From Candidatus Woesearchaeota archaeon (GTDB lineage: Archaea > Nanobdellota > Nanobdellia > Woesearchaeales > JABGXB01), in the NCBI GenBank assembly GCA_018675975.1, contig JABGXB010000002.1:318098-382097 (forward strand): 64,000 bases of DNA, read 5' to 3'. Each line of letters opens with the position of its first letter. Position 1 is the first letter of the stretch. The notes below the pieces were generated by a model. The model did no database searches, had not been told where the DNA came from, and saw only the letters and a program-made list of their open reading frames with translations. A program made the position numbers and the translations under genes. Below, in pieces: positions 32,900-43,053 of the stretch.

Positions 32900-34198
32900 A
32901 TGAAAAAAGTATACGTTGGAATGAGTGCAGATTTATTACACACAGGTCATTTAAATATAATTTCAGAAGCAGCAAAATTAGGGGAATTAACAGTTGGAAT
33001 TCTAACGGATGAAGCAATTTCAAGTTATAAAAGATTACCACATTTACCTTTCGAAGATCGAAAAAAAATAGTAGAATCAATTAAAGGAGTGCATGAAGTT
33101 ATTCCTCAAGAAACTCTTGATTATGTACCCAATTTAGAAAAGATAAAACCAGATTTTGTAGTCCACGGAGATGATTGGAAAACAGGTATACAAAAATCAA
33201 CACGCGAAAGAGTTCTAAATACAATTCAAAACTGGGGGGGAAGACTAATAGAGCCAAAATATACAAGTAATATTTCTTCAACTAAATTAAATCAAGCTTT
33301 AAAAGAAATTGGAACAACCCCAGAAATAAGATTAAAAAGATTAAGAAGGTTATTAAATGCAAAAAGTATAGTTAGAGTTCTTGAAGCACATAATGGTTTA
33401 ACAGGATTAATTGTTGAAAACGCAGAAGTCATTAAAAATGAAGTAAAAAAAGAATTTGATTGTATGTGGTTGAGCAGTTTAACTGATTCAACTGCAAAAG
33501 GAAAACCAGACATAGAATTAGTAGATATAACTTCAAGATTAAACACAATAAATGATATTTTAGAAGTAACAACTAAACCCATAATTTATGACGGAGATAC
33601 TGGAGGCAAACCAGAACATTTTCCTTTTTTTGTGAAATCATTAGAAAGATTAGGAATTTCTGCAGTTATAATTGAAGATAAAATTGGATTAAAAAAAAAT
33701 TCACTTTTTGGAACTGATGTGGAACAACAACAAGACACACCAGAAAATTTTGCAAAAAAAATTAATATTGGAAAAAAAGCCCAAATTACAGAAGATTTTA
33801 TGATAATTGCAAGAATTGAAAGTTTGATTTTAAAACAAGGTTTAGATGATGCAATTGAAAGAGCAAAAATATACATAGATGCAGGTGCTGATGGAATTAT
33901 GATTCATAGTAAAGAAACAGATCCAAATGAAATTTTAATGTTTTGTCACAAATTTAAATCTTTTGAAAAAAAAGTACCTTTGGTAGTAGTACCTTCAACA
34001 TATAATGAAATAACTGAACAAGAATTAATTGATGCAGGAGTAAACATAGTTATTTATGCAAATCATTTGTTAAGAAGTGCATATCCTGCAATGATAAATA
34101 CTGCAAAAATAATTTTAGAAAATGACAGATCATTAGAAGCAAACAATTCATGTATGCCAATTAAAGAAATTTTAAATTTAATACCGGGTGGAAAATGA
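32900..34198 (+). CDS. pepM: Phosphoenolpyruvate phosphomutase fused to an N-terminal nucleotidyltransferase
   Basis: 432 residues. Residues 1 to ~135 are a HIGH-type (cytidylyltransferase-like) nucleotidyltransferase with H14-T-G-H17. From ~150 is a PEP mutase: '[11 protein letters not shown]', '[15 protein letters not shown]', 'IIYDGDTGG', and the diagnostic EDK-x5-NS (E259 to S268), which separates true PEP mutases from isocitrate-lyase relatives. PEP mutase makes the C-P bond of phosphonopyruvate. The fused domain probably activates the pathway's end product, or a related alcohol phosphate, with CTP. AAAGGAG precedes the ATG. The ATGA overlap with the decarboxylase and the following Fe-ADH give a full phosphonate operon. 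Confidence 0.92.
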
Positions 34199-35310
34199 TT
34201 AATGTAATAAATTTTATAAATTTTTTAAAAAATCAAGGAATTGATTATTATACTGGAGTTCCAGATAGCTTAATGAAAAATTTCTGTGATTATATAAATT
34301 CAAATAAAGAAATTAATAATATAGTAAATCACAATGAAGGAGGTGCAATTGCATTTGCCGCAGGAAATTATTTAACAAATAAAAAACCGTGTTTAGTATA
34401 TTTACAAAATTCAGGACAAGGAAATTGCATAAATCCATTAATAAGTCTAACACACCCTAAAGTTTATTCAATACCAATGTTATTGTTAATTGGTTGGAGA
34501 GGTGAACCAGAAATTAAAGATGAACCACAACATATGAAACAAGGAGAAATAACTGAAGAATTATTGCAATTATGTGACATACCTTTTGAAATATTAGATA
34601 TTGAAAATTGGAAATCACAAATTGAAAAAGCAAACAATTTTATGATAGAAAATAAATCACCTTTTGCAATATTAGTTAAAAAGAATACTTTTGAAAAAAC
34701 TAATATAGTTAAAAAAGAGAATAATTTTAATCTAGTAAGAGAAAATGTATTGAAAAAAATAATACAAAATACTAATGATGATCAAATAATTTTTAGTACA
34801 ACAGGAAAAATAAGTAGAGAAATATATGAAGTTAGAAAAGAATTAAATAAAGAATCAGATTTAGATTTTTATAATGTAGGTGCAATGGGTCACGTAAGTC
34901 AAATTGCACTTGGAGCTTCATTTAAGACCAATAAAAAAATATTATGTATAGATGGTGATGGTTCATTAATAATGCACATGGGAACATTAGCGACAATCGG
35001 AAGTTATCAACCAAATAATTTTGTACACATATTAATAAATAATGAAGCACACGAATCTGTTGGCGGTCAAAAAACTGCAAGTAGTGAAATTAATTTTTTA
35101 GAAATTGCTAAAGGTTGTAATTATAAATATATAAAAAGTATAATTAATGAACAAGAGTTAGATGATTTTTTAAAAAATTCAGAGTTAAAATATCCAGCAT
35201 TTATTGAAATAAAAGTAAAATTAATGTCAAGAGATAATTTGAAACGCCCAGAAGACACAACTTTAGAAAGAAAAGAAAAATTTTTAAATAAATTAGAAAA
35301 TGCAAATTAA
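34195..35310 (+). CDS. Phosphonopyruvate decarboxylase
   Basis: 371 residues, a thiamine-diphosphate enzyme. The PYR half holds '[16 protein letters not shown]' and '[16 protein letters not shown]', with Glu that activates TPP. The PP half holds '[32 protein letters not shown]', the GDG...NN Mg-TPP motif. The length and '[14 protein letters not shown]' loop match phosphonopyruvate decarboxylases rather than larger acetolactate synthases. It makes phosphonoacetaldehyde and pulls the unfavourable PEP mutase step forward. It starts by a 4-bp ATGA overlap with pepM and its end overlaps the Fe-ADH gene by 11 bp. Confidence 0.92.
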
Positions 35311-36439
35311 CGAATTTATTGGAATTGATTGTTTAAATCAAATAACAGAAATAATCAAATCTGAAAATATTCAAAATATATTTTTAGTAACAGGAAAAAA
35401 AAGTTTTGAAAATTCTGGAGCAAAAGAAAAATTAGATGAGTTAATAAAAAATTTAAACATAACACATTATTTTGATTTTGAAGTCAATCCAAAATTTGAA
35501 GATGTATTAAAAGGAATAGATCTATTTAAACAAAATAATTGTGAATTAATAATTTCTTGTGGTGGCGGAAGTGCAATGGATATTGCCAAATCAATAAGTA
35601 TATTATCAAGTCAAAAAGAAACAAATTTAAGAGAAACTGTAATAAAGAATTCAATAATAGAAGATAACAAATATACACACATAGCAATTCCAACTACTGC
35701 AGGCTCAGGAAGTGAAGTAACTCATTTTGGTGTTATTTATGTAAATAATAAAAAATATAGTTTAACACACAAGTCAATGAAACCAAATTTTTATTTTTTA
35801 GATCCATCTTTATTAATGAGTAATAGTGAATATCAAAAAGCTACTAGCGGAATTGATGCATTTTCACAAGCAATTGAGAGTTTTTGGTCTGTAAATTCAA
35901 ATACAGAAAGTATTGAATATAGTATTAAAGCAATAGAATTACTATGGCACAATTTAGAAGATGCAGTAAAAACACCAACAATAGAAAATTTACAAAAAAT
36001 CTTTTTAGGTTCAAATTATGCAGGTAAAGCAATTAATATTGCAAAAACAACAGCCTCACATTCAATTTCATATCCAATTACTACTTTTTTTAAAATATCT
36101 CATGGTCATGCCGTTTATTTAACAATACCTGAAATGTTTTACTTTAATTCCAATATAACAGAAAAAGATTGTAATGATAAAAGGGGAGTAAATTATGTAA
36201 AAGAAAAAATGAAAAAATTGCAACAAATGTTTGGAGGAAATAGTTTTTTAGAAGCAAAACAAAATTTAGAATTATTTGGAAAAAATTTAAATTTAGAAAA
36301 TTTATTATCAAACCTTGGAATTAATAGAGAAAATATAAATTTAATTATACAAAATGGATTTAATCCACAAAGAGTTAAAAACAATCCCAGATATTTAAAT
36401 GAAGAAAATTTAAAAACAATATTAGAAAAAATATATTAA
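35300..36439 (+). CDS. Iron-containing alcohol dehydrogenase, probable phosphonoacetaldehyde reductase
   Basis: 379 residues, group III metal-dependent ADH. NAD-binding is seen in 'LIISCGGGSAMDIAKSI' and 'IPTTAGSGSEVTHF'. The metal site differs from the usual D-x3-H: it reads D186-A-F-S-Q190 in 'GIDAFSQAIESFWSVNS', a pattern I recall as typical of phosphonoacetaldehyde reductases; other ligands lie in 'TASHSISYPI' and 'ISHGHAVYL'. It should convert phosphonoacetaldehyde to 2-hydroxyethylphosphonate, the alcohol branch of phosphonate metabolism. No AEP aminotransferase is present in the operon. Confidence 0.85.
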   Translation: MQINEFIGIDCLNQITEIIKSENIQNIFLVTGKKSFENSGAKEKLDELIKNLNITHYFDFEVNPKFEDVLKGIDLFKQNNCELIISCGGGSAMDIAKSISILSSQKETNLRETVIKNSIIEDNKYTHIAIPTTAGSGSEVTHFGVIYVNNKKYSLTHKSMKPNFYFLDPSLLMSNSEYQKATSGIDAFSQAIESFWSVNSNTESIEYSIKAIELLWHNLEDAVKTPTIENLQKIFLGSNYAGKAINIAKTTASHSISYPITTFFKISHGHAVYLTIPEMFYFNSNITEKDCNDKRGVNYVKEKMKKLQQMFGGNSFLEAKQNLELFGKNLNLENLLSNLGINRENINLIIQNGFNPQRVKNNPRYLNEENLKTILEKIY

Positions 36440-36447
36440 TAAAATAA

Positions 36448-37887
36448 TTAAATTAAAACATCTATTTCTTTACCATATTTGGTATAAATACAATATAAAT
36501 ACATAAAGTAAAAAAAGGAAAAAATTATACCTAAATAAATAATTGAATTAATAAAAGAATATAACATTACAATTAAAAAAAGACTAAAAAATATTGTTAA
36601 AAAAACATTAAAATTAAATAAATTGTATACATCAAATTTATTTTTAATAAAATGAGAACTTAAAAAGAATATTAATAAATAACTAATAAAAGTTGATATG
36701 GCTGCACCTAAAATTCCATATGTTGGAATTAAAAAGAAATTTAATAAAACATTTACTAATGCTGAAATAATATTGACAAAAAGGATTATTTTTGTATTAT
36801 AATAAGAATATATAAATTGAAAATTAATTAAATTTAATGAATTTAATAAAACACCAAAAACTAATACAATAAAAACATATTGACCAGATAAATATTTAAT
36901 ATCAAATAAAAAACCCAAATATTTAATTCCAAAAAAAGCTACAAATATAAAAATTGGTAAAGATAATAATAAAAAGCCATTAATGATTTTTTTATAAAAA
37001 ATATTAGCTTTTAAAAAATTATTTTTTATATTTTTTCTTAAATAAGGAACAATAAATAAAATAATCGGAGAGGCTAAAAGCAACAATACTGATGCCGAAG
37101 GTAATAATACATTATATATACCAACATCAATTAATGATTTCATACTAGTTAACATAAAAGTATCAAAATAATTAATAAATCTCCCACCTAAATCACTTAA
37201 AATTAATGGAAAAGAAAAAAAAAGAAAATTGGGAATTATAGTATAATCATTAGCTCCAACATTTGTAAACTTAGAAATTAATTTTGATAAACTAGGAATA
37301 AATATTAGAAATACAAATATGGGCGTAACTACAAGAGCTAAAATTGCCGAAATCAAACTATCAAAAAAATAATTAAAAATTAAAAATAATATGACAATTA
37401 AAAGATTTTTTAATGGTTCAAAAGTATTTATTTGTTTAGACATATAAAAAATTCTAAAAATGGGTCTTAATAATAAACTCAATAAACTTGTTACAAAATA
37501 AATACTAAAAACTTTAAACAAAAATGAAGAATATAATAAATTAAAATAATTTTGAGCTAAAAAATCAGAAATAAAAATAAAAATAAATACAAAAATAGTC
37601 GAAATAATAAATTGGGATGAAATTACAAAACATAGTAAACTTCTTAATGCATTAAAATTTTTTTTAGATAGAAAATCAGAACCAAATTTAACAACACCCT
37701 GATTAAAACCCAAATTTCTAAAAACTAAAAAAAAAAGTATAAAATTTAACATAGAATAAAATAAACCATATTCTTCAAGACTAAGATTAGATGCTAAAAT
37801 AATTCTAAATAAATAAGAAAAGAATAAAGAAAATATTGCACCAATAATATAAAAAATACTTCCTTTAATAAATAAATTTTTAATCAT
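36448..37887 (-). CDS. Wzx-like oligosaccharide flippase
   Basis: 479 residues with about 12-14 transmembrane helices and a MATE/MOP (PST) layout: 'GSIFYIIGAIFSLFFSYLFRIILASNLSLEEYGLFYSMLNF' at the start. It probably flips the completed lipid-linked oligosaccharide outward for AglB. Its ATG overlaps the AglB stop by 4 bp (ATGA), so flippase and transferase are made together, a strong functional link. Confidence 0.85.
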   Translation of the reverse strand: MIKNLFIKGSIFYIIGAIFSLFFSYLFRIILASNLSLEEYGLFYSMLNFILFFLVFRNLGFNQGVVKFGSDFLSKKNFNALRSLLCFVISSQFIISTIFVFIFIFISDFLAQNYFNLLYSSFLFKVFSIYFVTSLLSLLLRPIFRIFYMSKQINTFEPLKNLLIVILFLIFNYFFDSLISAILALVVTPIFVFLIFIPSLSKLISKFTNVGANDYTIIPNFLFFSFPLILSDLGGRFINYFDTFMLTSMKSLIDVGIYNVLLPSASVLLLLASPIILFIVPYLRKNIKNNFLKANIFYKKIINGFLLLSLPIFIFVAFFGIKYLGFLFDIKYLSGQYVFIVLVFGVLLNSLNLINFQFIYSYYNTKIILFVNIISALVNVLLNFFLIPTYGILGAAISTFISYLLIFFLSSHFIKNKFDVYNLFNFNVFLTIFFSLFLIVMLYSFINSIIYLGIIFSFFYFMYLYCIYTKYGKEIDVLI

Positions 37888-40800
37888 TTTATAATAAAAT
37901 CAGAAAAAGATAAAGTTTTATTATTTAATAAAATAATATGATAACCAAATTGACTCTCAATTGGTTTACTTATTTCACCAACATTTAATTCTTTTGCCGC
38001 ATCACTAAATTCAAGAACAAATCCATTAAGATCACCAAGACCCATATTACCACCATTAACAACAACACTAGGATCCTCACTAAATTCAATTGCCTTTTCT
38101 TTAAAATTATGTATAGTTAAATTGTTTAAAACATCATTTGTAAATTTTAAGGCTTCTTCTTTTGTTCTATTAATATTTAATTGTGGAACTTCACTATGAC
38201 CAATTAAAATATGACTAACATTATATAAATAGTTTTTTGGTTTAGTCATTTCATTACTATCCCAGTCAATTAACCAACTACTTATTTTAAATCCACTTTG
38301 GCTTCTTTGTTCGTCAAAGAATTTAAAATTTTTCAAACCAAGACCATTTAAATAAAACAATCTACTAAACATAGAGCCAGCTAAATCTGGATGAGATATT
38401 GAAACTAAAAGTCTTCCATCATTTTCATATAATGTTAAAGCAAAATTAATACTTGCATTTTCATAATTTATTGATTCAAATTCATAATCAGAATTTAAAT
38501 AATTAAAAGAATGAGGTTTTTGATTATTTTGAAAACTACCTTGGTTATTTTTCAAATTATGAGTATATATTAAAGCACCCTGGGGCGTATTGACATTACA
38601 AATTATTTCATTTTCATTTTTTTGACAAGGATAGTTTCCCACATAATTTGGAAAACCACTAATCCAATAATTTGCACTTTCTTCATCATATGCATTAACA
38701 TTCATACTATCAATTAATTTGTCAGGATTTTTAATATTTTTTTCATTTAATATTTTAATTTGGTCATCATATAGTAAATCGTTAGTGCTTTTCCAAGCAT
38801 AAGCTCGATCAAAATTCCAACCACCAAAATGAGCCCAGACAGCCGCTTTTGAAACCATATCTTGTGAAGTTATAAAAATTCCATCTTGTGGAGTACAATG
38901 GGTCATTCCTAAAAATACATCAACTTCTTCAACACTATAATTTTCATTTAATAAAATTTGTTTTGCATTTTCTTTCGAAGAAAAAATAACTGTTTCAATT
39001 AATCTTAAAGTATCATAATTATCATATTTTTTTTCTAATTCCTTACCAAATCTATGATTTGAACAATGCAACATACGCAAAATATTTTTTGCCTCACTTT
39101 CATTATTAGTTAATAAACTTCGCCCAACCCAATGCGCTAATTCACCTAATTGAGAACCACCATCAAAGGTTGCACCCCTGTTTGAAACCGTAATAAATTG
39201 ATGACCAAAATCCCACCAAGAAGTTATTATCGAATCATTATGAGTTTCTGTTTTTATTTTATTTAAATCCGAAACCCACGCGTCATTTAAACTTGGTAAG
39301 GATTGTGAACCAAATGCATAAACTGTATTTAACGGAAAAATTAAATTTAATAATAAAAATACCAATACAAAAATACACAAATTTGAAGTAATCAAAGATA
39401 ACTTAAATTCCTTATTTGAAAATTCAGACAAATATTTTGAAATTTTACCAAAAAATATTGAAATTATAAATGCAAATGGTAAAACTGTAACCATAATAAA
39501 TCTAACACCTGAAAAAGTAGTCCAAAATAAAACAATAAACCAAACAAAGCCCAAAATTGAAAGTTTTATATTAAAATTTGAATTTTTTCTTTCAACAAAT
39601 AATATAATTAAACCAATAAATCCAAGAATGGTTAATAGTATACCTTTAGATAAACTACCCCCTCCAGATAAACTAGAAAAAGTATTTAAAAAATTACTTG
39701 GATTTAACTCCGCTACTGTTGTATAAACATTAGGCCAAATGCTTATCCCTTTAGTAGTTTCTTTTAATAATAAAAAACCAAATGGTCCTTTAAAAAGTGA
39801 AATTAAAGAACCCACACCTTTTATTAAAACAACAAAAATTGATCCTAAAACAAAATAAGAAAATGAATAATAAAATGTATTTTTTATTTCTACATCATAT
39901 TTAAAAAGATTAAAACTTTTTTTTAACTTATATTCTTTAATGACTAATATGATCAAATATAAAAATAATGAAATTAATAAAATTAAAAAGAAATACCAAT
40001 AACCCCCCCAAGCAAAAGAAAATAAACCAGTAAAAAATGATGCAAAAATTAAATTAGTTATTTTCCATTTTATTTTTTTTAATTGAAATACATTTATTAT
40101 AAAATAAAGTATTATTAAAGGAAAAAATATCACATACATATCAGTATCTGAAAAACCACCAACAGTTCTTTGAAATATACTTGTATGAAATCCAACTAAA
40201 TATGAAAATATAAAACCACCTAATGTATTAGTAATTTGTCTACCAATTAAAAATGCAAAAATTATTGCAATCCCTATTCCAATAATCGGTAAAATAAAAA
40301 ATGTTTTATATAATGAAATGTCGATAAAAAAATTTAATATTTTATATGAATATACAGCAAAATATGGGTGTAAAGAATTAGTTAATGGTTGTTCATTATT
40401 ATTAGGAGCCAATCTAAATTTATCAATAGATTGACCTTCAATTAATATCTCCCCAACATGCCCATTATTCAATAAATTTCTTGCTTGTCTATAATAGTAA
40501 TAAGGATCAATTGCAACTAAATATGTCTCCCCATCTTCATTTTGAAATTCTGCTTTAATTCTATCTGACAAAATTTCTGTTTGTTGATCTATTACTTGTT
40601 TATTTTGTTCAGAGAATTCAATCCATCTTTTTTGTGCTAATTGTTGTTTTCCTTGTGAATCAACATTAGGAAATTGAGAATTAATTTCATTTAATTGAGA
40701 ATTTAAAAAATTTTGTCGTATACTTTGTTCAGCCCACTCTTCTGAAATATCAACATTTAAATTTTGAGTTCTTACATCAAAATTTACAAATAATAAAGTC

Positions 40801-40928
40801 AATAATAAAAAAATCCAAATATATTTTTGAATAAATTTTGAAAATCTATATTTAGGGTTATCATTAAATGGATCTAATAAATAATTTTTCCAATTTGAAA
40901 AATCTAATTTAAATTCTTTTTCTTCCAT
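37884..40928 (-). CDS. aglB: AglB/STT3 oligosaccharyltransferase with C-terminal parvulin PPIase domain
   Basis: 1014 residues. About 13 helices span residues ~35-530. The first outer loop has 'AIDPYYYYRQARNLL' with metal-binding D141, and the second carries 'GGFSDTDMY' (DxD). The soluble domain has the N-glycosylation signature W571-W-D-F-G575 and 'FDGGSQ'. This is an archaeal oligosaccharyltransferase that moves a lipid-linked glycan to Asn-X-Ser/Thr. Unusually, residues ~904-1010 ('SHILIGHSEVPQ...EFSEDPSVVVNGGNMGLGD...GEISKPIESQFGYHIILLNNK') are a parvulin (PpiC/rotamase) prolyl isomerase domain. An AAGGGAT Shine-Dalgarno precedes the ATG. Very confident for AglB; the PPIase reading rests on clear motif matches. 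Confidence 0.93.
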   Translation of the reverse strand: MEEKEFKLDFSNWKNYLLDPFNDNPKYRFSKFIQKYIWIFLLLTLLFVNFDVRTQNLNVDISEEWAEQSIRQNFLNSQLNEINSQFPNVDSQGKQQLAQKRWIEFSEQNKQVIDQQTEILSDRIKAEFQNEDGETYLVAIDPYYYYRQARNLLNNGHVGEILIEGQSIDKFRLAPNNNEQPLTNSLHPYFAVYSYKILNFFIDISLYKTFFILPIIGIGIAIIFAFLIGRQITNTLGGFIFSYLVGFHTSIFQRTVGGFSDTDMYVIFFPLIILYFIINVFQLKKIKWKITNLIFASFFTGLFSFAWGGYWYFFLILLISLFLYLIILVIKEYKLKKSFNLFKYDVEIKNTFYYSFSYFVLGSIFVVLIKGVGSLISLFKGPFGFLLLKETTKGISIWPNVYTTVAELNPSNFLNTFSSLSGGGSLSKGILLTILGFIGLIILFVERKNSNFNIKLSILGFVWFIVLFWTTFSGVRFIMVTVLPFAFIISIFFGKISKYLSEFSNKEFKLSLITSNLCIFVLVFLLLNLIFPLNTVYAFGSQSLPSLNDAWVSDLNKIKTETHNDSIITSWWDFGHQFITVSNRGATFDGGSQLGELAHWVGRSLLTNNESEAKNILRMLHCSNHRFGKELEKKYDNYDTLRLIETVIFSSKENAKQILLNENYSVEEVDVFLGMTHCTPQDGIFITSQDMVSKAAVWAHFGGWNFDRAYAWKSTNDLLYDDQIKILNEKNIKNPDKLIDSMNVNAYDEESANYWISGFPNYVGNYPCQKNENEIICNVNTPQGALIYTHNLKNNQGSFQNNQKPHSFNYLNSDYEFESINYENASINFALTLYENDGRLLVSISHPDLAGSMFSRLFYLNGLGLKNFKFFDEQRSQSGFKISSWLIDWDSNEMTKPKNYLYNVSHILIGHSEVPQLNINRTKEEALKFTNDVLNNLTIHNFKEKAIEFSEDPSVVVNGGNMGLGDLNGFVLEFSDAAKELNVGEISKPIESQFGYHIILLNNKTLSFSDFIIK

Positions 40929-40985: not shown

Positions 40986-41693
40986 TTAATTATTATTAAA
41001 TAATAATCTGAATTTTCGAATAATCATTTTGAAGGCAACAAATATGCTTCTTTTTATTAATGCATAAAAATTATGTTTTTTAATTACATATGGATTGTAA
41101 TTAATAATAACAGGAATTTCTTTATATTTTATTTTTTTTATACCAATTTCATCAATTATTTCACTTGCATGAGCCATACAGTTTTCTTTAATTTCAATAC
41201 ATTTCGCAGCATATCTATTCATAACTCTATACCCATTATGAGTATCAGTTAAATTAATATGTGAAATTAAAAGAGTAAATACCAAGCTTAATTTTAATAA
41301 AAACCATTTTATAAAAGGCATATTAGATTTTTTACATAAAAATCTACTTCCAAGAGTAATTTCACATTTTTTATCAATAACCGGTTTTAACATATTATTT
41401 AAATCTTCAATTCTATGTTGACCATCCGCATCAAAAGTTACTATATATTTACATTTTGATTGCTTAAGGCAATAATTTATACCATGTCTTAATGCCGCAC
41501 CTTGACCTCTATTTTTTTTATGATTAATTACATAAGCATATTTTTTTGAAATTTTATGAGTATTATCACTAGAATTATCATTTATAACAATTATTTTAAA
41601 ATATCCATTTTTATTTAATTTTTTTAAAACAGACCCAATAATTTTTTCTTCATTATATGCAGGAATTACAAAATATATAGAATTTTTATTCAT
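40986..41693 (-). CDS. Family 2 glycosyltransferase, DPM1/polyprenyl-phosphate type
   Basis: 235 residues. 'FVIPAYNEEKIIGSVLKKL', 'IVINDNSSDNT', 'NRGQGAALRHGI' and D88-A-D90 in 'TFDADGQHRIEDL' define a GT2 of the dolichyl-phosphate sugar synthase/undecaprenyl-phosphate sugar type. 'TDTHNGYRVMN' matches the acceptor-side motif of the DPM1 clade. It probably charges a polyprenyl phosphate with a sugar for the AglB pathway. It has no transmembrane domain and lies 57 bp upstream of aglB on the same strand. Confidence 0.85.
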   Translation of the reverse strand: MNKNSIYFVIPAYNEEKIIGSVLKKLNKNGYFKIIVINDNSSDNTHKISKKYAYVINHKKNRGQGAALRHGINYCLKQSKCKYIVTFDADGQHRIEDLNNMLKPVIDKKCEITLGSRFLCKKSNMPFIKWFLLKLSLVFTLLISHINLTDTHNGYRVMNRYAAKCIEIKENCMAHASEIIDEIGIKKIKYKEIPVIINYNPYVIKKHNFYALIKRSIFVAFKMIIRKFRLLFNNN

Positions 41694-41787: not shown

Positions 41788-43053
41788 ATGAATTTAATAA
41801 AACAAATATTTGAAGAATTTAATAAAAATAAAATAAATTATTCAATAATTAGAAATTATGAATTTTTAGTTCAAAACAAAGAATATTATGATGGAAAAGA
41901 TATTGATATTTTAGTTAAAAAATCAGATTATAAAAAATTAGAAAACCTTATTTTAAAAAATAATTTTTTTAAAATTGATTTAAATTATGGAACAAATCAC
42001 AAAGCTTTTGTAAATACAAAAAATAAACAAATAATATCATTACACATCCATTTAGGTGGAATTAGTGGCACATCAACAATATATTTAAATGAAAAAATAT
42101 TAATTAATAAAAAATTAAAAAATAGTTTTTACACACTTGATGAAAAAGATCAATTTATTGCATTAATTTTACATATAATTTTAGATGGCAAAGAATGGAG
42201 AGAAACTTATAAGACTCAAGCAATTGAATTAATTGAAAAATCTAATAAATTATATACTTATTTTTCAAAAAATATTGCAAATGAAATTATTGAAAAAATA
42301 AAAAATAAAGAATTTGATAATTTTAATGTAAAAAAATATAAATTAAATTATAAATTAAATAATCCTTCATTTACGTTTAGTAAAATTTCATATATGATAA
42401 AATCATTCATTTGGGTTTTAAAAAGAATATTTAAAGGTGGAAATTTAATTGCAGTAGTTGGCTTAGATGGAACTGGAAAAACAACATTAACTGATAATGT
42501 AAATAATTATTATAAAAAATCATTAATTAGAACAAAATTAATTTATTTTGGAAGGGGTAAAAACAATATAATACCAATAAAAAAAATATCAGCCCCATTT
42601 ATTAAAAAAAAAGAAAAAATACATGAAAACAGCCCAACAGTTGGAAAAACAAAAAAAACTAGCATTTTATTCACATTAGGATCAATAGTATTTTTTATTG
42701 ATTTAATATTAAGATATTTTTTTACTATAAAAATATCCAAAATAAAATACGACTTAGTTTTAACCGATAGATTTGCAACAGATTTAATTTTGATGAATGG
42801 AGTTCCTTTTTGGTTGAGAAAAATGTATTTTTATTTAATTCCGAAACCAAATATAATGATTTATTTATATAATGATATAAATACTTTAAATATAAGAAAA
42901 AAACATCCAATAGATGATTTAAAAAGACAAGAAGAAATATATTCATATTTAATTAAAAAATATAATTTTTTTAAAATAAAATCTGAAAATATAGAACAAG
43001 TGAAAACCGAATCATTAATTAAAATAAATGAATTATTAAATTATAAAAAATGA
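41788..43053 (+). CDS. Nucleotidyltransferase-like and thymidylate-kinase-like fusion protein
   Basis: 421 residues. The N-terminal ~200 residues carry a minimal polymerase-beta-type nucleotidyltransferase motif, 'GKDIDILVKKSDY' (D38-I-D40). From ~215 there is a P-loop kinase related to thymidylate kinase: Walker A G225-L-D-G-T-G-K231-T-T, then 'LVLTDRFATDLI' (DR-Y/F motif). Such two-part proteins occur in polysaccharide clusters, where the kinase half is thought to phosphorylate a small molecule or lipid; the true substrate is unknown. A TATA-like AATATATATAAATG lies about 30 nt upstream. The stop overlaps the next gene by 4 bp. Confidence 0.75.
   Translation: MNLIKQIFEEFNKNKINYSIIRNYEFLVQNKEYYDGKDIDILVKKSDYKKLENLILKNNFFKIDLNYGTNHKAFVNTKNKQIISLHIHLGGISGTSTIYLNEKILINKKLKNSFYTLDEKDQFIALILHIILDGKEWRETYKTQAIELIEKSNKLYTYFSKNIANEIIEKIKNKEFDNFNVKKYKLNYKLNNPSFTFSKISYMIKSFIWVLKRIFKGGNLIAVVGLDGTGKTTLTDNVNNYYKKSLIRTKLIYFGRGKNNIIPIKKISAPFIKKKEKIHENSPTVGKTKKTSILFTLGSIVFFIDLILRYFFTIKISKIKYDLVLTDRFATDLILMNGVPFWLRKMYFYLIPKPNIMIYLYNDINTLNIRKKHPIDDLKRQEEIYSYLIKKYNFFKIKSENIEQVKTESLIKINELLNYKK

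Follow-up and report, generated by a model that had tools for sequence, protein, structure and literature searches.

An AglB oligosaccharyltransferase of Woesearchaeota fused to a predicted parvulin domain, and other putative prolyl isomerase domains at the same junction in its relatives

A single reading frame of a Woesearchaeota archaeon was found to join the oligosaccharyltransferase (OST) AglB to a C-terminal domain of the parvulin type, and relatives in the same order carry a parvulin, an FKBP or, in one case, a cyclophilin at the same place. Sequence comparison directly supports the joining of both parts in one chain, the recurrence of this architecture, the assignment of three folds (from profile matches), the common junction and the retention of active-site residues; that the domain lies outside the cytoplasm (deduced from OST topology), is catalytically active and has the acceptor chain for a substrate is inferred. 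It is considered probable that the added domain is a tethered prolyl isomerase or foldase that works close to the site of glycosylation, on the acceptor chain during its translocation, with catalysis being predicted and not supported by any biochemistry.

Identification of the AglB–parvulin fusion

The window analysed here is a stretch of 64,000 nucleotides from contig JABGXB010000002.1 of a Candidatus Woesearchaeota archaeon, and the features discussed below are collected in Table 1. A sequence-only reading had proposed that a single AglB–parvulin chain is encoded at 37884-40928 on the reverse strand. The coordinates proved to be exact: the region is one open reading frame without any internal stop, and both STT3 and Rotamase models matched it above their cut-offs. 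No other STT3-family gene is present in the window genome (n = 1).

Table 1. Features of the AglB–parvulin gene and its neighbours (positions in the window).
Feature	Position	Strand	Remarks
AglB–parvulin fusion gene	37884..40928	-	1014 aa, one open frame
STT3 transmembrane catalytic region	39348..40550	-	residues 127-527; PF02516
AglB extracytoplasmic C-terminal globular domain	38250..39347	-	residues about 528-893
WWDFG motif (WWDYG signature of OST catalytic subunits)	39204..39218	-	residues 571-575; invariant in alignment A3
Parvulin/PpiC prolyl isomerase domain	37917..38246	-	residues 895-1004; Rotamase_3
His906	38211..38213	-	invariant in 26/26 fused domains
His997	37938..37940	-	invariant in 26/26 fused domains
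Wzx-like polysaccharide flippase	36448..37887	-	Polysacc_synt E 2.2e-17
Family-2 glycosyltransferase	40986..41693	-	PF00535 E 8.9e-26; just upstream of the AglB fusion

The AglB body was recognised by the Pfam STT3 model with an E-value of 2.5e-37 (129.8 bits against a curated cut-off of 24.5) and by STT3-PglB_core at residues 565-643, while NCBIfam models pointed to PglB and phmmer to PglB/STT3 structures. Within the STT3 region, the D261-T-D263 motif and the EL5 motif TVAE407 are invariant in an alignment with relatives (A3), and so is D141. The segment ESEAKNILRML (residues 610-620), located after WWDFG, does not exactly fit the DK or MI consensus, as judged by eye only. With the STT3 model, the WWDXG motif, the EL5 glutamate and DXD-type aspartates all present, the protein meets these criteria of the AglB/STT3 family; glycan transfer itself is inferred. 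The protein is thus built like AglB, STT3 and PglB, with the STT3 transmembrane region followed by an extracytoplasmic C-terminal domain. The latter ends in a conserved strand preceding the added domain, the boundary being set by blastp against unfused AglB proteins. In Archaeoglobus fulgidus AglB the C-terminal globular domain spans residues 499-868 (PMC8342417). Unlike described AglB proteins, which stop at this domain (PMC8342417), the window protein continues into an isomerase domain.

The fused parvulin domain

The prediction of a PpiC/rotamase domain after the end of AglB was confirmed by running the STT3 and Rotamase profiles. Rotamase_3 matched the tail with an E-value of 5.4e-18 (66.1 bits, cut-off 22.5) and Rotamase (PF00639) matched residues 906-1002 with an E-value of 2.5e-14 (54.4 bits, cut-off 21.7), far beyond chance expectation and well above the level at which the prediction would have failed. 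Rotamase_2 gave a weaker match, the sole Pfam domain match of the protein that is not above its curated cut-off. All three motifs named in the sequence-only reading (SHILIGHSEVP, GGNMGLGD and GYHIILL) are present. NCBIfam searches with the tail retrieved PrsA and SurA, and phmmer retrieved structures of SurA, PrsA and Pin1; the same three structures were found with a profile built from 26 fused tails.

The two catalytic histidines (Table 1), which we take to be equivalent to His59 and His157 of Pin1, are invariant together with two core phenylalanines in all fused parvulins identified, although these are only 31-44% identical to the window domain. The hydrophobic proline pocket is represented by F974, M962 and F970. 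Membership in the PpiC-type parvulins is therefore met on the Rotamase models, the two histidines and the pocket, and isomerase activity is inferred from them. AlphaFold models, made both for the isolated tail and for the complete protein, had a pLDDT of 37, too low to be informative, with an input limited to the window protein and two relatives. The parvulin fold of the tail is thus inferred from the profile matches to solved parvulins, and that it can reach the OST site is an assumption.

Genomic context

The start of the flippase gene overlaps the stop of the AglB gene by 4 bp, so both are probably co-transcribed. A phosphonate biosynthesis set adjoins the N-glycosylation genes (window 32900-36439, forward strand). 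It comprises a cytidylyltransferase–PEP mutase fusion, a TPP-dependent decarboxylase resembling phosphonopyruvate decarboxylase and an iron alcohol dehydrogenase, a predicted gene content consistent with a hydroxyethylphosphonate decoration of a surface glycan. The protein encoded at 41788-43053 (forward strand) is weakly nucleotidyltransferase-like in its N-terminal part, and its C-terminal P-loop part (GLDGTGKTTL) weakly resembles thymidylate kinase.

The window genome also encodes three FKBP matches and two cyclophilins, hence the fused parvulin is not its sole prolyl isomerase. A second rotamase-like protein of 313 aa with an N-terminal hydrophobic segment is encoded at L002:1342-2280 (reverse strand). 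Its catalytic histidines are apparently missing, and this genome may thus have no intact parvulin besides the fused domain. Elsewhere in the order another fusion of folding factors was observed, a SurA-like parvulin followed by a C-terminal thioredoxin-like domain with the motif WCPHC (L028:685-2430, forward strand).

Isomerase fusions across the order

The order (Woesearchaeota) was surveyed in 352 genomes, in which the window genome is the only member of its genus and family. Fusions were sought via Rotamase matches in frames of 780-1218 aa and via AglB matches extending to the query end. This sample is biased toward well-scoring AglB proteins and includes all visible rotamase matches, so the proportions given here are not frequencies. 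Among 139 classified AglB C-termini, 26 carried a parvulin, 27 an FKBP and 86 neither. The AglB–parvulin architecture was found in 26 genomes of 10 GTDB families (f1, f10, f24, f30, f47, f60, f61, f64, f86 and f88), and every one of these tails gave a Rotamase match in Pfam. The sequence-only reading was aware of no standard AglB protein with such a domain, which holds for those described; a fusion private to the window genome was rejected, as 25 further genomes share it. The recurrence also rules out a merger of two genes by faulty gene calling. A gene-calling or assembly artefact, for which no supporting evidence was found, retains a practically negligible probability in view of the uninterrupted frame, the number of genomes with the same architecture and the similar GC content of the two gene parts (0.247 and 0.242). 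The latter also gives no sign of a recent import in the window.

FKBP was first noticed in AglB proteins with tails of about 120 aa at the same position and without parvulin. All 27 aligned FKBP tails matched FKBP_C in Pfam. They belong to families f4, f28, f35, f51, f72, f81 and f83, and in the f51 representative the gene is broken into two frames. Three further FKBP fusions identified later brought the number in the order to 30. One contig, JACPID010000007.1 (L034, Candidatus Woesearchaeota), encodes an AglB–FKBP protein that contains the one of genome G022. In the FKBP tails, the tyrosine of VxxNYIGW, the aspartate of FDSS, the tyrosine of GYG and the phenylalanine of TLxF are invariant or at least 90% conserved; degenerate tails also exist (e.g. 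L115, L199). An insert is present in the flap region of the FKBP domains of these fusions. It bears an N-x-S/T sequon in 19 of the 27 aligned tails (column 89 of alignment A2; e.g. L144:6722-7171), which makes the isomerase itself a possible glycosylation target of the OST to which it is joined.

When the order was searched for cyclophilins, a single long frame emerged, an AglB–cyclophilin on a 512-kb contig of genome G213 (L235:2577-5924, reverse strand; Pro_isomerase E 3e-48). The recruitment of cyclophilin therefore rests, as far as sequence matches go, on one example. All three isomerase types start directly after the last conserved strand of AglB, W-x-V-D-W-x-G. None of the AglB proteins examined in the order bears two isomerases, and no GTDB family showed both parvulin and FKBP fusions among the classified C-termini. 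A separate observation was made in genome G305, where three tandem AglB genes (L122:1377-10108, forward strand) all lack an isomerase tail.

Tails of at least 20 aa are present in 35 of the 86 AglB proteins without parvulin or FKBP. A Pfam scan of these 35 tails matched no family, and the examples examined appear acidic and of low complexity. By profile match, the recognisable domains at the junction are exclusively prolyl isomerases, of three unrelated folds in 57 proteins. This pattern speaks against a neutral merging of neighbouring genes without functional consequence, as does the conservation of active sites despite deep divergence. Such an origin could be invoked for small DPANN genomes and would agree with a frequent gain or loss of the domain, and the lone AglB–cyclophilin might have arisen by a recent merger; as a general explanation it is nevertheless very improbable.

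A draw of 281 genomes of the class was searched with the parvulin and FKBP tail profiles, and every fused frame belonged to this order. About 210 of the genomes represent other orders; their matches were confined to free FKBPs and to frames that were short or resembled SurA. A fusion common throughout the class was thus rejected for this draw. The survey was restricted to one archaeal class, other archaeal phyla being outside its range.

History of the fusions

The distribution of the tails was mapped on trees of the AglB core, from which the tails were excluded (FastTree, 136 rows; IQ-TREE, 79 rows). Counting gains and losses together, at least 12 changes were required for the parvulin label and 5-6 for the FKBP label; branches with strong support forced 10 and 5 of these, respectively. 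The tree of the parvulin domain by itself forces just one origin, while the AglB tree implies at least 10 changes, so that a single origin of the parvulin fusions is not settled. Few gains with many losses, or an exchange of domains, are both possible. Parvulins, FKBPs and cyclophilins have no common fold; what they share is the binding of extended peptides and prolyl isomerisation. The presence of three non-homologous folds at one junction thus requires at least three independent acquisitions.

Family f24 has no parvulin other than the fused one in 17 of 17 genomes, and its 11 genomes with an AglB free of the domain lack parvulins altogether. Order-wide, 23 of 26 fusion genomes lack another parvulin, a count confounded by relatedness. 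The many AglB proteins of the order without an isomerase domain, together with the frequent label changes, indicate that the domain is dispensable, a point against the tethered isomerase favoured below. It is also very improbable that the isomerase works on AglB itself, helping AglB loops to fold or gate, or that it merely stabilises the C-terminal domain. Location on the same chain and the large size of that domain would be compatible with such a role, but many AglB proteins in the order and those described do without it, and an identical structural contact made by three different folds at one site is unlikely.

Discussion

Under the reading that we favour, AglB would come with a built-in prolyl cis-trans isomerase positioned outside the cytoplasm. 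The AglB part would move the lipid-linked glycan onto Asn-X-Ser/Thr as the exported chain leaves the translocon, and the tethered isomerase would bind X-Pro bonds nearby on the same unfolded chain and accelerate their isomerisation. The result may be a prompt folding of the glycoprotein, for instance one of the surface layer or elsewhere in the envelope, or an extended state lasting until the chain is glycosylated. Relatives would fill the same need by placing one or another module at this C-terminal junction, namely a parvulin, an FKBP or a cyclophilin. The C-terminal domains of OSTs face the outside, as known from STT3/AglB topology, and the fused isomerase should therefore do so as well. 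That one chain both glycosylates and isomerises had already been suggested by the sequence-only reading; the idea has gained strength from two unrelated isomerase folds in the same place, and the activity on nascent glycoproteins remains inferred.

The repeated placement at one site and the retained active-site residues argue for selection on isomerase activity next to the glycosylation site. Non-catalytic use of the domain is the main rival, possible but rather unlikely: it could serve as a peptide-binding or holdase module that catches unfolded acceptor segments with prolines and hands them to the OST site, or recruit another envelope factor. Members of all three isomerase families bind extended peptides in any case, and the active site is weak in a few of the FKBP tails. 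The human FKBP11 binds the OST-A translocon beside STT3A (SEC61-OST), and an adaptor role, with its active site buried, has been argued for it there (PMC12804085). Against this stand the catalytic histidines, retained without exception in the 26 parvulins, and most active-site positions of the FKBP tails.

As an isomerase-family protein at the site of N-glycosylation (PMC12804085), FKBP11 is the nearest functional parallel to the catalytic fusion proposed here. It is however a separate eukaryotic membrane protein, an FKBP only and thought to be an adaptor. The FKBP11 type, a separate membrane-anchored FKBP, is not met here, since the window parvulin and the FKBP tails of relatives sit on AglB. 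The likeness is functional only, without any hint of a common descent of the arrangement.

With regard to known foldases, the window domain resembles SurA, PrsA and NmPin in its profile match, its two active-site histidines and its expected outside location. Those proteins are free, lipoprotein or membrane-bound foldases, and SurA and PrsA own chaperone domains, whereas the window parvulin is a bare catalytic domain joined to an OST. The archaeal NmPin is an active parvulin at the outer face of the membrane with a proposed role in S-layer protein folding (PMC4922055). No report of AglB fused to parvulin, FKBP or cyclophilin was found in the openly licensed literature; one match for AglB and cyclophilin was an unrelated Aspergillus proteome paper. 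A survey of archaeal PPIases makes no mention of OST or DPANN (PMC8530231).

How a chain's N-glycosylation is coordinated with its own folding has not been settled. The eukaryotic links are loose accessory factors with a disputed catalytic role, whereas here the link is covalent. Three folds at one position make the idea that an OST benefits from an adjacent prolyl isomerase directly testable, using soluble domains and point mutants, and natural single-chain OST–foldase enzymes become available for glycoengineering. The data suggest that, on the surface of these archaeal cells, the attachment of sugars is coupled to folding steps that depend on proline. On balance we lean, with somewhat less assurance than for the tethered isomerase itself, toward an exchangeable C-terminal OST module, recruited independently as parvulin, FKBP and cyclophilin, which would couple N-glycosylation to prolyl isomerisation under direct selection.
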